A stretch of 64,000 bases of DNA, taken from assembly GCA_019309115.1 (NCBI GenBank), contig JAFDGW010000001.1:1-64000 (forward strand), read 5' to 3'. Numbering within the stretch: the stretch's first letter is position 1; the number at the start of each line of letters is the position of its first letter. The notes beneath the pieces were generated by a model, which worked only from the letters and a program-made list of their open reading frames with translations, was not told the origin of the DNA and searched no databases. The DNA comes from Deltaproteobacteria bacterium (GTDB lineage: Bacteria; Desulfobacterota; Syntrophobacteria; Syntrophobacterales; Thermodesulforhabdaceae). Shown here piece after piece: positions 29,723 through 52,653 of this stretch. Both the position numbers and the translations under genes were made by a program.

Positions 29723-30376
29723 TTAGCGTTGCTTTAATGAGCGAGCAATTCCCATCATCCGGTACACTATACCACCACTCATATACGCTATATCTTCAGC
29801 AGGCAGGTATGTGTCAATGTTTCGGTCAAACAGTACAGTGGCTTCCGGGGGAAATTCGTCGTCGCCACGCCACAGAACAATTTTAACTGCGATTCTGGGA
29901 AATACTTGGAAGACAAAGGTAATATCGCCTATGTCGTCGGCGAGGGATCCGCCTATCATGGGAGCAACCTTTGCAAAAAGCTCCGGCTCTTCGCCGAATG
30001 CCTTTAAGAAGGGATCTCTGGCACGCCTTTGAAAAGCATCATAATAAAAATGCCCGTCCGGAATATCCCTGAAGGTTATCCATTCACCTGTAGCAGGCTC
30101 TCCAGATGCATTGAGAACATAATGGGCAATTAAAATTTGGTCTGTCAGAGATATTTCATCCTCAGGACTTTTGCCCCAGATGGAAACTTCCTGAGTAGTC
30201 GGATTGACCCGTATAGTACAGGGCTGGTTCAGGAAGGTAAGCCGAATGTCAATAGATCCATCCTCATTCAGCTCGGTACTTCCTCCAGAAAGTTTTGCCA
30301 GATGGTGTACGTTAGCAACAGCAAGCTTCTCTTTCGCAATTCTAAGTGCTTCCTTGTAGTCGTCTATCCTTGGCAC
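29723..30376 (-). CDS. DUF3786 domain protein, 217 aa
   Basis: The protein matches the DUF3786 family of anaerobes, with FLNQPCTIRVN, WITFRDIPDGHFYYDAF and DITFVFQVFPRIAVKIVLWRGDDEFPPEATVLFD visible in parts. Members often sit by corrinoid or CODH genes in acetyl-CoA-pathway organisms. The function is unknown. GGAGG precedes a GTG start at 30376. It is followed 18 bases later by the CooC-like ATPase, which supports a link to one-carbon metalloenzyme maturation. Confidence 0.75.
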   Translation of the reverse strand: MPRIDDYKEALRIAKEKLAVANVHHLAKLSGGSTELNEDGSIDIRLTFLNQPCTIRVNPTTQEVSIWGKSPEDEISLTDQILIAHYVLNASGEPATGEWITFRDIPDGHFYYDAFQRRARDPFLKAFGEEPELFAKVAPMIGGSLADDIGDITFVFQVFPRIAVKIVLWRGDDEFPPEATVLFDRNIDTYLPAEDIAYMSGGIVYRMMGIARSLKQR

Positions 30377-36564: not shown

Positions 36565-37617
36565 TCATGGGGCTATAATTACCTGAGGTTCATCGGATTT
36601 CAAAACTGTTCCGATTTCCGCAGCAAGGCTGAGCCCGAGGCCGCGGAGTTCTTCAACCATTTTAGCCGCATCTGCCGCATCTAATGCCACGAGCAGGCCA
36701 CCCGATGTTTGGGCATCGGCCAGAAGATCGACCAAGACGGGGTCCACCGACTCAGAAATTTCGACCTTACTGGAGCAAAAATCCCTGTTTGCATACGTAC
36801 CTGCAGGTACCATACCAATCGAAGCCATATCGTAAGCTCCGGGAAGCAGCGGTACCTTGCCGGCCTGAATTTCTATTTTGACCCTGCTTGCAGTTGCCAT
36901 TTCAAGTGCGTGGCCAATAAGGCCAAAGCCTGTTACGTCGGTGCAAGCGCTTACACGGTACTTTTTCATAACTTCCGCGGCTGTTTTGTTCAATGTGGCC
37001 ATCCATTCCACGGCTTCGGTGAAGTCGTCTTCGCCTATCAGTCCCCCCTTTAGTGCCGTTGCAAGTATCCCCGTTCCTATCGGTTTGGTCAGCACTAGGG
37101 CATCTCCGGGGCGCGCACTGCTATTGGTTTTTACCTCCTCCGGTCTGGCTATACCTGTTACGGCCATGCCGTATTTTATTTCCCGGTCCTCCACACTGTG
37201 CCCACCCAGCAACAAGGCTCCCGCTTCGTGCAATTTATCCAGTCCACCTTTTAATATTTCCCTCAGGTACGCCAGATCCATGGTTTTGGTGGGAAAACAA
37301 ACGATATTTAAAGCAGTTACCGGTTCTGCGCCCATGGCATATATATCGCTCAGGGCATTTGCAACTGCTATCCTCCCAAAATCGTAAGGGTCGTTTACGA
37401 TAGGGGTAAAGAAATCCACCGTTTGCACCAAAGCTATCTCATCCGTGAGTAAAAACACCCCTGCATCGTCAGAGTTTTCACGGCCGACCAAAAGCCTTGG
37501 GTCTTTTTCTAAGGAAAGCTGGCTAAGCAGGTCTTGCAGGACACCCGGTCCTATCTTTGCCGCTCAGCCCGACGCCGTCACAGTGGTTATGAGCTTGCCT
37601 CTTTGTCGGTTTTGCAT
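36565..37617 (-). CDS. selD: selenophosphate synthase, likely a selenoprotein (UGA at 37564-37566)
   Basis: The open frame from 37491 matches SelD but lacks its conserved N-terminus. Reading upstream through an in-frame TGA at 37566-37564 restores it: the protein starts at ATG 37617 with MQNRQRGKLITTVTASG, then Sec18, then AAKIGPGVLQDLL. The ASG-Sec/Cys-AAKI motif is the catalytic signature of SelD, and many anaerobes use selenocysteine at that position. Total length is 350 residues, the normal size. SelD makes selenophosphate from selenide and ATP. A stem of AGGAC/GTCCT lies 11 bases after the UGA, as in bacterial SECIS elements. YedF lies 16 bases upstream. Calling the frame from 37491 alone would miss 42 residues. 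Confidence 0.92.
37538..37552 (-). promoter_or_regulatory. putative SECIS hairpin in selD
   Basis: On the minus strand AGGAC-CGGGT-GTCCT begins 11 bases after the UGA, with GGGU in the loop. Spacing and loop resemble the bacterial SECIS element read by SelB. Confidence 0.6.
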
Positions 37618-37633: not shown

Positions 37634-38245
37634 TCAGGTGATTGGTATGACTTTGTCCGCAAGCTGCAACGTTGTTACTATATCTAACATGTTCGTAGTT
37701 TCACCAATCTTCTTTTTGTCCAGAAGATTGAAAAAATCAAGACAGGTTCCGCACACCAGTATATCTACACCGGATTGTTCCAGCTTTTTCAGGGTATTGA
37801 GCACAGGTGAATCCTCGATGGTCAGTTTGACACCGCCGTTAAGAAAAACGAGCCGCCACAGCTGAGGCACCATTTCGTCCAGGGTTTTTAAAAAGTTAAG
37901 CATAAGTTTTTCGCCCAGGGCTTTGTCACCTCTGCCTAATCGGTCGGTGCCCACCAGGACAACAGTTTTGCAGGAATCTCTTTCTTCGTCGGTTATAATC
38001 TGGCAACTGTACTCGTTCACATCCTCTGAAGCATCTTTAAGAGCTGTTATAAAAATCTCATTATTCCCTTCTTTTGATGAAAATTGATAACCTGACTTTT
38101 TGAGAAAGCGACCGACATTTTCCCTGGCAGCAGGGTTATCTACGATTATAATAATTTTTTCAGGGTTCTCCTTTTCAATGACTTCCTTGGTTTTTAAAAC
38201 CGGTGCAGGGCACGCCAGCCCACGACAATCTAACTTCCTTTCCAT
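37634..38245 (-). CDS. yedF: sulfurtransferase-like selenium metabolism protein YedF
   Basis: The 203-aa protein has an N-terminal SirA/TusA domain with LDCRGLACPAP (CPxP-type cysteine near residue 12) and a C-terminal DsrE-like domain (about 100-203) with VLVCGTCLDFFNLLDKK. The fusion is typical of selenium-using bacteria and is usually next to selD, as here. I chose the ATG at 38245, since AGGGAGG precedes it and the MERKLDCRG start is the family norm. The frame opens earlier at 38341. It probably handles or delivers selenium or sulfur. Function in detail is not established. Confidence 0.88.
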   Translation of the reverse strand: MERKLDCRGLACPAPVLKTKEVIEKENPEKIIIIVDNPAARENVGRFLKKSGYQFSSKEGNNEIFITALKDASEDVNEYSCQIITDEERDSCKTVVLVGTDRLGRGDKALGEKLMLNFLKTLDEMVPQLWRLVFLNGGVKLTIEDSPVLNTLKKLEQSGVDILVCGTCLDFFNLLDKKKIGETTNMLDIVTTLQLADKVIPIT

Positions 38246-38448
38246 TTTGACCTCCCTGATGGTGTAACCACAACTGGACGATTTCATTACACGATTTGGG
38301 GATACTTTTTGAAATAGGTAATTTTTATTGGTTCTTAACATGTCTATTCATTATTTCGATTGATCAGCTTGATTGACAGCATTCTGGGTTTCCTTTAGCA
38401 TTCCAATTCGGGTTTTACGGTGTTTAATTATCTTCATGGGGAAGGACG

Positions 38449-40137: not shown

Positions 40138-41457
40138 ATGATTAAAGCTGCAAATAAAACAGGACTCGTGTTTTTCCCGGCTTTTGATTGGGCCATATCC
40201 CCCACGCATCCCGAGCGTGAAGAACGACTGCTTTACACGCAGGATCAGGTTTTTGAAGAGGGTCTTCTTGACGTGGACGGGATAGTGGAATTCAAGCCTG
40301 ATATGATAAATCGAGACGATATAAGGCGTGTTCATTTTTGCGTACCCGATGAATGGGCCGTGACCACTGAATCCCATCTCCTGAGTGCCGGTGGAGCAAA
40401 GGCTGTAGGATCTGCCGTTCTCGAAAAAAAGGTGCAAAAGGGATTTGCGCTTGTTCGTCCACCTGGTCATCATGCAATGAGGGTTGTGCACGGAGCGAGA
40501 GGGTTTTGTAACATAAACATAGAAGCCATTATGATCGAATATTTACGAGATGCCTACGGGGTGGACAGGGTGGCTATAGTTGATACAGATTGCCACCATG
40601 GAGATGGAACTCAGGACATATACTGGAACGACCCAGATACACTTTTCTTATCCCTTCACCAGGATGGTAGGACACTATATCCTGGTTCCGGGTTTCCTCA
40701 TGAATTGGGAGGACCAACCGCCTTCGGAACAACCATAAACGTCCCATTGCCACCGCAGACATCTGAAGAGGGATTTCTGTATGTACTTGAAAATGTGATT
40801 ATTCCAGTGCTTGAAGATTTCAAGCCGGAACTGGTAATAAACTCGGCCGGTCAGGATAATCACTATACCGACCCGATTACCAATATGAGATTTTCTGCTC
40901 AGGGCTACGCAAAACTAACAGAGAAATTATCTCCTGACATAGCGGTTCTGGAAGGGGGCTATTCCATCGAAGGAGCATTGCCTTATGTGAATGTGGGTAT
41001 TATTTTGGCGCTGGCAGGAATGGATTACTCGACGGTAAGAGAACCGGACTATGATTTTGAGAAGCTCCGCCAGTCGTCGGCGATAACCGATCACATTCGC
41101 AAGGTTTGTGACCGAGTTATGGATTACTGGCAGGAGGCTCCTTCGCTTCGCGAACAGATGCTTGATAGTGGTGGTATAACGGAGCGAGAAAGAACAATTT
41201 ATTATGATACAGACAACATTCTTGAAAATCAAAAAGAAAAAATCGTCGTGTGTAGAGATTGTCCAGGGGTGTGGAGCGTAGAATCCTGGACGGACAGGGG
41301 AAAGCGGATTTATGCTGTTCATATTCCGAGAAAAGCTTGTGAAAAGTGCGTTGACATCGGCATGGAATGGTATGAAAAGACCCCATTCCGCCACTTTGAT
41401 ATAATTTTCCTTCAGGATAGAAAAAATAAAGTGTTTAAGTCACGCAGGCCTTCCTGA
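40138..41457 (+). CDS. histone-deacetylase-like amidohydrolase with cysteine-rich tail
   Basis: The 439-aa protein has the zinc-hydrolase core of the arginase/deacetylase fold: RPPGHHAM (near residue 115), ARGFCNINIEAI, DTDCHHGDGTQDIY and SAGQDNHYTDP. Bacterial members deacetylate acetylpolyamines or act on acetoin-linked and other amide substrates. A C-terminal extension from about residue 365 contains two CxxC pairs (Cys372/375 and Cys401/404), perhaps a structural zinc site. That is unusual for the family as I know it. It lies nine bases after the HyuA-like gene and three bases before rlmN on the same strand. Confidence 0.88.
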   Translation: MIKAANKTGLVFFPAFDWAISPTHPEREERLLYTQDQVFEEGLLDVDGIVEFKPDMINRDDIRRVHFCVPDEWAVTTESHLLSAGGAKAVGSAVLEKKVQKGFALVRPPGHHAMRVVHGARGFCNINIEAIMIEYLRDAYGVDRVAIVDTDCHHGDGTQDIYWNDPDTLFLSLHQDGRTLYPGSGFPHELGGPTAFGTTINVPLPPQTSEEGFLYVLENVIIPVLEDFKPELVINSAGQDNHYTDPITNMRFSAQGYAKLTEKLSPDIAVLEGGYSIEGALPYVNVGIILALAGMDYSTVREPDYDFEKLRQSSAITDHIRKVCDRVMDYWQEAPSLREQMLDSGGITERERTIYYDTDNILENQKEKIVVCRDCPGVWSVESWTDRGKRIYAVHIPRKACEKCVDIGMEWYEKTPFRHFDIIFLQDRKNKVFKSRRPS

Positions 41458-49325: not shown

Positions 49326-49439
49326 ATGAACTTCGATTTACCGGAGGAACTCAGGATTCTGAAAGAAGAAGTTTACAATGAGGGGAGCCGAAAAATTGAC
49401 GATAGTAAAATGGTATTGAATGATTACGCGAAAGCTTAA
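49326..49439 (+). pseudogene. possible remnant of an acyl-CoA dehydrogenase start, 37 codons
   Basis: An ATG at 49326 opens a short frame beginning MNFDLPEELRILKEEV. That resembles, from memory, the N-terminus of acyl-CoA dehydrogenases. The next 20 residues do not continue the family and the frame stops at 49437-49439. No ribosome binding site is clear. It could be a leftover of a lost gene or chance. Confidence 0.25.
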
Positions 49440-49606
49440 AATTATTAGTGAGGATGTTCCTTTTCGTAGGTTTGGTCGTCGGCGTCAACCGAAGAAAACC
49501 GTTGGGATCTTAAGCGAGGGTTGCATTGACTTTTTAAGGGCTTTGATGGTGAATTCGCTTGACTTTGACTTGGTTCGTGTAGTAGAAGGCTCTCAACTTT
49601 TTGGTG

Positions 49607-49684
49607 GTCCCCATCGTCTAGCCAGGTCCAGGACACCGGCCTTTCACGCCGGCAACAGGGGTTCAAATCCCCTTGGGGACGCCA
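49607..49684 (+). tRNA. tRNA-Glu (anticodon TTC)
   Basis: The 78-base gene has acceptor GTCCCCA with TGGGGAC, anticodon stem CCGGC/GCCGG with loop CTTTCAC giving TTC, T stem CAGGGG-type with loop TTCAAAT, and encoded CCA at 49682-49684. TTGACT repeats at 49559-49570 may be its -35 region. The gene is embedded in frame in the long open frame of the next kinase, which therefore cannot start before it. Confidence 0.95.
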
Positions 49685-49692
49685 CTTTATTC

Positions 49693-52653
49693 ATGTTTTT
49701 ATGCCTGATTTTAAGATATCTTTTTCGTTCATGTCGAACCAACTACTGGGGAGAACACCAGACGTGGGGGAAAAGGTTTATTCTCACTTCTTTATTGTTG
49801 ATTATTCTTGCAATGAAGTTAGCATTTTTATCGGCTATTTGTTATGGCGCAGAAAAAAAGCTTCTTAATGTGGGGGTTTACGAGGATCCACCTCTCTCAT
49901 TCATGGACGAACAAGCTCGGCCTCAAGGGGTTTTTATCGACATTTTGCGCGAAATTGCCAGAAAAGAAGGCTGGCAATTAAAATTTGAACCCTGCGTCTT
50001 TAAAGGATGTCTGGATCGTGTCAAGGTCGGTTCTTTGGATCTTCTTGGTCCTGTAGCTTATTCGGACGAACGGGCGAAAATCTTTTCATTTAACAGAGAA
50101 CCTGTCTTCACCAATTGGGGTGAGCTATATCGAAGAAAAGATATTGGATTTACAACTGCTGAGGATATTAAGGGGAAAACCATTGCTATGGCTTCCAGAG
50201 ATATATATGGGCAACGCTTTTTGAGACTTGTCGATAATTTCGGCTTTAATTGCAAAGTTCTATATGTTAGCGATTATCCTCATATTTTCCGGGTGATGGA
50301 CGAAGGCAAGGCACAATTTGGAGTGGTAGCTCATCTTTTTGGTATGATGCATTCCGCCGAACACAACGTGGCAGCGACCACCTTTATTTTTTCTCCCGTT
50401 AGGCTGCATTATATAGGTACGCCGGGCCGCATGGACGATGTTCTCAGCTCTATTGATCATTACTTGCTCAACTTTAAAAGCAAAGAAAATTCTGTGTATT
50501 ATCAGACAATTCGTAAATGGCTGGGACTCAAGGGAAAAGCCTATTTCCCACGATGGATTATTTACGCTCTGGTGACCATCGGGGCACTAGCATTACTTTT
50601 CGGGCTTGGGGTTTTGCTTTTAGGGATAGTGGTCAGGAAGCGAACTGCTATGTTGAGACAAGAAATTGCTGCCCGTGAGGCTAGTGAAGCCAAGGCCAGA
50701 GAAAGTGAATCTATTTATAGAGCTCTTTTTGAAAACCTACCAAGCCCCGTTGCGATTCTGGATGATGAAGGGAAGATCATTCGATGGAACAGAAGTTTTG
50801 GCACTTTCTGGCAAGTTTCGGGTTGGGATGCAGGCAGCAAGTATTTGTGGGAAATGTTCAGCGATTTGGAAAACTTTCGCGCACAGCTAATTAATCAGGC
50901 CATTGACTGTGCTTTGCTGGGTTTTCCTCGCGAGTTCACAATAGAATGCACAAGAAACGATGGAAGCTTTCTAGCTATGAATATCATGCTTCGTGGAATA
51001 TTTATCGGCGGTGATGTTTGTGCTCTCTGCATAATGCATGACATAACCCAACGAATGCGCCTTCAGCAATTCTATAAGCAGCAGTGGGATGTGTTACGTC
51101 ACGTTATTGACGGTATGCCGATTGCCACGATACTCATAGATCCGGAAAGCAATGTTGTAGTGTGGAATAGGGCAACTGAAATCCTTACGAACATTAAAAG
51201 AGAACACGTTTTTGGACGTAAGCTGGATTTAAGACCGCTTTTTACTGGTCGGGACCTTCCTGTGCCAGCACGTCTATTACTAGAGAAAAGCCCGGGAGAG
51301 ATAGAGAAAGAGTTTCGAAGACGAATTCGTGTTTATAAGTATCACAAAGAAGCAGTTGAAACCTACGGATTGATTATCGTTCGCGGGGAAAAAAGAAGGG
51401 TACATGTGGTAGCAGCAAAGCTGCGCGATGATGACGGAAAGTTGATTGGTGTGGTTCAATGTGCCCGGGATATTACGGAGCGATACCAGTTAAGAGAAAG
51501 CCTGGCACATGCACAAAAGATGGAAGCCATTGCCAGACTTGCAGGTGGATTTGCTCATGATCTTAATAATGTACTTACCTGCATTCTTGGCTGTTGCGAT
51601 TTGATATCTTTATCGGCTCAGGGCAATTCTGAAATTACCAGGTATCTTGAACTAATTCGGTCCACAGTTAAGAGAACCGGTAAGCTGAATGAGCGGCTTC
51701 TCGGTTTGGGTAAAAAGCAGTTTCTTGTGTCCCGCATAGTTGATGTTAACGAGGTTGTTCAAAAAATTGCTATGGATTTCAAAACATTAGCCGATGAAGG
51801 GGTGGTATTGCAGGTTGATACTCCCGATGAACCACTTACCGTTAAGGTTGATCCGGAACAGCTAGAGAGTAGTCTCATAAACCTTTTGATGAACGCTCGT
51901 GATGCTATGCCCGAAGGTGGAACCATCCGTTTAAAAACAGGCAGGGTGTTTTATGACCAACCGATTATTGTGAATCGCTTCGAAGTCCCCGCCGGTGAAT
52001 ATGTTGCTATTTCCGTTGCAGACGAAGGAGTTGGAGTAAGCGAGGAAATATTGAAACACATGTTTGAACCCTATTTTACCACAAAGGAAGGCGGTTCTGG
52101 TATGGGACTTGCCGTAGTACATGGGTTTGTTAAGCAAAGTGGCGGTGCGGTAGCGGTTAATTCTGAAATGGGCAAGGGAACTGAGGTTATTATTTACCTA
52201 CCACTGGTTGCCTCCCCCTACTGTTATAATGTAAAAGAATCGACGGTTTCTCCGTCCGGCTCGAACTTCAGAAGCAGTGATAAAAGAAATGTTCTGGTTG
52301 TGGAAGATGATGAATCGCTGGCGACTTTGATAGAACATACGCTGACTTCGATTGGATACAAGGTCTTTAAAGCCTCCAATGCCGGTGATGCCCTAAAAGT
52401 TCTTCGGGAAAACCGGGAAATTGAAATTGTAATTCTTGACATTGTTCTGCCAGATATGAATGGGATAGACCTTGTTAAAGCAGTTCGAGCCACGGCAGAA
52501 GATGTGATGCTTATAGGAATGTCTGGTTACAGCGAGAGTGAGCTGGTGAAACAGGGCATAACAAAGGAAGTTTTACCGGTTTTTATTTCTAAACCCTTCA
52601 CGGGGGCAGAGTTAATCCACGTGGTGCGAACGGTAGCTTCGAGAAAGTTGTAA
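49693..52653 (+). CDS. hybrid sensor histidine kinase with periplasmic solute-binding sensor
   Basis: An open frame runs from 49420, but tRNA-Glu fills 49607-49684. The first usable ATG is 49693 and the true start may be later, since the signal segment FILTSLLLIILAMKLAFLSA ends near 49845. Domains then follow: SBP_bac_3 sensor (KLLNVGVYEDPPLSFMDEQ), membrane segment IIYALVTIGALALLFGLGVLL, two PAS domains, HisKA box ARLAGGFAHDLNN, ATPase domain with DEGVGVSEEI and GSGMGLAVVHG, and a receiver domain with Asp in EIVILDIVLPDMNG. It parallels the kinase at 33020. An exported small protein follows after eight bases. Confidence 0.88.
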   Translation: MFLCLILRYLFRSCRTNYWGEHQTWGKRFILTSLLLIILAMKLAFLSAICYGAEKKLLNVGVYEDPPLSFMDEQARPQGVFIDILREIARKEGWQLKFEPCVFKGCLDRVKVGSLDLLGPVAYSDERAKIFSFNREPVFTNWGELYRRKDIGFTTAEDIKGKTIAMASRDIYGQRFLRLVDNFGFNCKVLYVSDYPHIFRVMDEGKAQFGVVAHLFGMMHSAEHNVAATTFIFSPVRLHYIGTPGRMDDVLSSIDHYLLNFKSKENSVYYQTIRKWLGLKGKAYFPRWIIYALVTIGALALLFGLGVLLLGIVVRKRTAMLRQEIAAREASEAKARESESIYRALFENLPSPVAILDDEGKIIRWNRSFGTFWQVSGWDAGSKYLWEMFSDLENFRAQLINQAIDCALLGFPREFTIECTRNDGSFLAMNIMLRGIFIGGDVCALCIMHDITQRMRLQQFYKQQWDVLRHVIDGMPIATILIDPESNVVVWNRATEILTNIKREHVFGRKLDLRPLFTGRDLPVPARLLLEKSPGEIEKEFRRRIRVYKYHKEAVETYGLIIVRGEKRRVHVVAAKLRDDDGKLIGVVQCARDITERYQLRESLAHAQKMEAIARLAGGFAHDLNNVLTCILGCCDLISLSAQGNSEITRYLELIRSTVKRTGKLNERLLGLGKKQFLVSRIVDVNEVVQKIAMDFKTLADEGVVLQVDTPDEPLTVKVDPEQLESSLINLLMNARDAMPEGGTIRLKTGRVFYDQPIIVNRFEVPAGEYVAISVADEGVGVSEEILKHMFEPYFTTKEGGSGMGLAVVHGFVKQSGGAVAVNSEMGKGTEVIIYLPLVASPYCYNVKESTVSPSGSNFRSSDKRNVLVVEDDESLATLIEHTLTSIGYKVFKASNAGDALKVLRENREIEIVILDIVLPDMNGIDLVKAVRATAEDVMLIGMSGYSESELVKQGITKEVLPVFISKPFTGAELIHVVRTVASRKL

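Follow-up and report, generated by a model that had tools for sequence, protein, structure and literature searches.

Near the 5′ end of the selD gene in the 64,000-nucleotide stretch of DNA analysed here (the window) lies an in-frame TGA codon, at the position of the catalytic cysteine or selenocysteine of selenide, water dikinase (SelD). The question raised by this locus is whether the codon is read as selenocysteine (Sec) in an otherwise ordinary enzyme, or whether it reflects a sequencing error, a shorter gene or a pseudogene. Based on the reading frame, on related sequences and on the gene content of the genome, the window gene almost certainly encodes a normal selenophosphate synthetase of the Sec-containing type (probability about 0.97). 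The three other readings are each rejected on comparison with relatives.

Reading frame of selD and conservation of its UGA

The mechanical list of open reading frames gives SelD as 36565-37491 alone, a 308-aa product with a TTG start; the preliminary description of this DNA likewise has standard gene calling begin SelD at 37491. The coordinates proposed there for the full gene, the position of the TGA and the length of 350 residues plus stop were all confirmed (Table 1). Read through, the protein carries the motif MQNRQRGKLITTVTASG-U-AAKIGPG around codon 18 and matches the selD model TIGR00476 with 391.6 bits (cut-off 125) over model positions 2-309 of 311. Members of the SelD family are recognised by a catalytic Cys or Sec with a Lys at +3. 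This pair is present as U18 and K21, which align with the Cys and Lys of the solved chains 2yye and 3u0o. Two chains with the title selenide water dikinase 1, 9hjt and 3fd5, have T aligned with residue 18.

Table 1 Features of the window discussed in the text
Feature	Position	Strand	Description
selD, selenide water dikinase	36565..37617	-	350 residues, Sec at position 18; family match and homologue alignment
In-frame TGA, read as selenocysteine	37564..37566	-	Codon 18, catalytic Cys/Sec position; conserved in relatives
Bacterial SECIS apical hairpin	37537..37553	-	Stem UAGGAC/GUCCUG; loop CGGGU at 37547-37543
yedF, sulfurtransferase-like selenium metabolism protein	37634..38341	-	TIGR03527 224.4 bits, cut-off 110
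DUF3786 protein	29723..30376	-	173.8 bits; about 200 bases from tRNA-Val
Histone-deacetylase-type domain protein	40138..41457	+	439 aa; PF00850, 217.3 bits
Hybrid histidine kinase	49420..52653	+	Frame of 1077 aa
tRNA-Glu gene	49607..49684		Within the first part of the histidine kinase frame

A gene that begins at TTG 37491, as in the mechanical list, would yield a SelD without its N-terminal loop. We regard this as extremely improbable, since the segment that would be lost is conserved and aligns with relatives and with the solved SelDs, and since the ATG at 37617 sits 16 nt past the end of yedF, a gene that precedes selD in 22 of the other 30 loci. With the window's own locus, in which yedF is directly upstream, the same-strand arrangement is found in 23 of 31. 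In one locus (L022) yedF was matched in pieces only; the eight loci without yedF include one (L031) with about 50 bases of upstream sequence. The family match of the window's YedF begins at residue 37, so translation may in fact start downstream of the ATG given in the list. A section of PMC9312934 names YedF among predicted selenium-related proteins.

A search for SelD in 59 genomes, the window's own included, gave matches with an E-value of at most 0.001 in 57. In three of these (G028, G032 and G058) the match is only weak (E 1e-11 to 1e-6), and G043 holds a C-terminal piece of SelD and a weak match, no more. For 51 SelD sequences, spread over 44 genomes, we inspected the homologous codon; the set comprises 31 loci, the window's among them, and 20 hand-picked sequences. 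It is TGA in 48 of the 51 (window included) and TGC or TGT in three, a count in which three of the hand-picked sequences had been taken because the search reported no stop in them. Beyond this set, 18 further matches span residue 18, each with one TGA somewhere inside. In a scan of genome contigs, the sole relative with a name was a bin of Phycisphaerae, at 47% identity. The window gene thus has an in-frame UGA where its homologues hold Cys or Sec, the mark by which bacterial selenoproteins are recognised.

A TGA that is truly TGC or TGT, misread in sequencing, was the objection that the preliminary description raised against its own reading. Cys forms of SelD do occur, as in three of the relatives; however, because TGA stands in 48 of 51 homologous sequences, including the ones from G012 and G031, genomes of one contig each, and the Sec machinery is found in the same genome, a sequencing error is ruled out in practice. 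That selD is a pseudogene, or that its UGA is read as an amino acid other than Sec, is scarcely credible in view of those machinery genes and of the intact frame 3′ of codon 18, in which the TGA is the sole internal stop.

A hairpin downstream of the UGA

The stem-loop with GGGU in its loop that had been noticed 3′ of the UGA is present (Table 1), with 10 bases between the UGA and the stem and 16 between the UGA and the loop. Bacterial SECIS elements, as described in a part of PMC13188914, have a loop of 3-9 nt, a stem of 4-16 bp, a G at loop position 1 or 2, a distance of 16-37 nt from the UGA and a folding energy of at most -7.5 kcal/mol. The selD hairpin satisfies this description in loop (5 nt), stem (6 bp, one of them G-U), G (loop position 2) and spacing (16 nt). 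Its energy is -10.8 kcal/mol over the 39 bases after the UGA, although the stretch used in PMC13188914 itself may differ. The commonest loop pattern given in that part of the paper has paired outer loop bases, whereas those of the window's hairpin are C and U.

Taken alone, the hairpin is weak evidence, and its stability is unexceptional by either shuffle. Of 200 dinucleotide shuffles of the 68-base segment that contains it, 16 fold at least as well (z -1.57), and the z-score against synonymous-codon shuffles is -0.57. Across the 47 Sec sequences compared with synonymous-codon shuffles (the inspected set without L068), the mean z is -0.78, with 38 of 47 below zero. Two members of the window's family (L016 and L017) have one pair broken, other than the covarying pair described below, and are less stable than their synonymous shuffles, with z-scores of +1.55 and +1.60.

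We compared the four core pairs of the hairpin across the 48 Sec sequences with a control in which one side of the stem was slid by 1-3 bases (six registers). In register, 159 of 192 cells are paired, versus 37-117 of 192 in the slid registers, and all four pairs form in 25 of 48 sequences versus 0-3 of 48. The three Cys genes have core pairs in 4 of 12 cells, which is within the range of the slid registers (1-6 of 12). One core pair is altered on both sides, being A-U in the window and U-A in 31 of the 48 Sec sequences. The codon across the loop is Asp in 38 of them, 31 of which keep the pair, and Val in nine. Five of the Val sequences belong to the window's family, and in each of them the pair is retained (A-U or G-U) via the last base of the facing codon; in the four outside the family (L041, L066, L068 and L069) it is broken, as T-T. 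The covariation is real, yet few independent events lie behind it.

Two Sec-type copies of selD occur in some relatives, and three of these loci, L066 (G033), L068 (G020) and L069 (G036), are such second copies. The motif after their Sec is AAKIGPTVLSDAL, and their T-T corresponds to core hairpin pair 17-25.

When the window was scanned for frames that run through a TGA, 30 candidates came up, among which selD has the lowest folding energy over the 45 nt downstream (-12.6; the next is -10.6). No selenoprotein was recognised among the other 29 when the listing was checked by eye. At the gathering score, Rfam reports two tRNAs in the 64-kb window and nothing else. The tRNA-Glu gene overlaps the frame of the hybrid histidine kinase, the true start of which is probably after the tRNA; the first Pfam domain begins at residue 149. 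Elsewhere in the window, the gene for the PF00850 protein is in frame with rlmN and ends three bases ahead of it.

Selenocysteine machinery and selenoproteins of the genome

The genome to which the window belongs is a draft of 2,512,959 bases in 72 contigs (96.43% complete). SelA, SelB and tRNA-Sec, which together characterise genomes with Sec-containing proteins, had been predicted to occur in it, and the lack of selB and tRNA-Sec had been named as evidence against Sec. All three were found, on three further contigs: SelA with 606.1 bits (cut-off 267.9), SelB with 363.5 bits (cut-off 242.25) and tRNA-Sec with 77.3 bits (gathering score 47) and the anticodon TCA according to ARAGORN.

The search for tRNA-Sec returned 18 matches, two of them above the gathering score. 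ARAGORN typed the second (51.2 bits, contig 36) as tRNA-Ser; the next four, which complete the six top matches typed of the 18, are tRNA-Ser or tRNA-Leu. In control genomes the Rfam tRNA-Sec model gave matches in 14 of 14 at a loose E-value and above the cut-off in 5 of 14, and the anticodon therefore weighs more than the score.

The expectation of other selenoproteins in this organism was borne out once. The gene for the alpha subunit of formate dehydrogenase (FdhA) on contig 56 contains one in-frame TGA, in the context CARL-U-HSSTVAGL; no in-frame stop occurs in the two other FdhA matches above cut-off in this genome. For three further families the expectation did not hold within the matched stretches, which are free of in-frame stops in all five PF02662 matches, in the single PF00578 match and in the single PF00374 match (weak, below cut-off). 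The draft genome gave no match to selenouridine synthase (TIGR03167), and YqeB (TIGR03309) was not found in it beyond one partial match of 20.6 bits against a cut-off of 220.

During translation, SelB carrying Sec-tRNA-Sec would bind the hairpin just 3′ of the UGA, and selenocysteine would enter the N-terminal loop of SelD as residue 18. By known SelD biochemistry, Sec18 and the nearby Lys21 would handle selenide, with ATP being split to give selenophosphate. The selenophosphate would then be used by SelA to form Sec-tRNA-Sec, serving SelD itself as well as other selenoproteins such as FdhA.

Apart from the window gene, the genome has a single match to SelD, a stretch with 29% identity (37.4 bits) on contig 70, probably a related kinase. 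If it is, the cell needs a selenoprotein to make any selenoprotein, a dependence that would fail if a second SelD sits in the missing part of the draft. Such a loop was already implicit in earlier work on Sec-containing SelD and is no peculiarity of the window. It seems unlikely that the system restarts after selenium starvation from a little SelD with, for example, Cys at the UGA, or from the frame that begins at TTG 37491 together with a second protein such as YedF.

Comparison with known SelD systems

A single selD gene model is corrected by this analysis, which also shows that the organism has the genes for Sec decoding and at least one other selenoprotein gene besides selD, that for FdhA. 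A Sec-containing SelD with an in-frame UGA has long been known and is widespread in bacteria, and no new principle is involved here. Such proteins have appeared in the literature since 2006 at the latest and count among the most common prokaryotic selenoproteins (PMC1794560, PMC13188914). FdhA and SelD are the most widespread selenoproteins in the set of the former, and SelD ranks second among prokaryotic selenoprotein families in the latter.

Chains 2yye and 3u0o carry the title selenide, water dikinase. They belong to the same family as the window's SelD and share the Lys at +3; they differ in having Cys at the catalytic residue in place of Sec. Three genomes, G022 (locus L064), G008 (L065) and G014 (L070), carry a Cys-type SelD in addition to a Sec-type one. 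These Cys-type proteins resemble that of the window in their SelD domain (47-49% identity), but they have a Cys codon and are encoded in frames of 743-746 aa. PMC4561486 describes SelD fused to an NADH dehydrogenase-like domain, nearly always in the Cys form.

The likeness is closer in a relative (G031, locus L024) that is very probably Syntrophobacter fumaroxidans, of the same order as the window's genome, which therefore very probably falls within Syntrophobacterales, although the two taxonomies may delimit that order differently; SelD is among the 31 selenoproteins listed for that species in Table 3 of PMC1794560. Its Sec-containing SelD is 62% identical to that of the window, with the UGA at the same position, yedF upstream and six of six hairpin pairs. 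After the start of the loop the window encodes Gly-Val-Leu (GGT GTC CTG), whereas the relative encodes Glu-Asp-Leu (GAG GAC CTG), and the Gly codon on the paired side is GGA in the window and GGT in the relative, a matching change of the third base.
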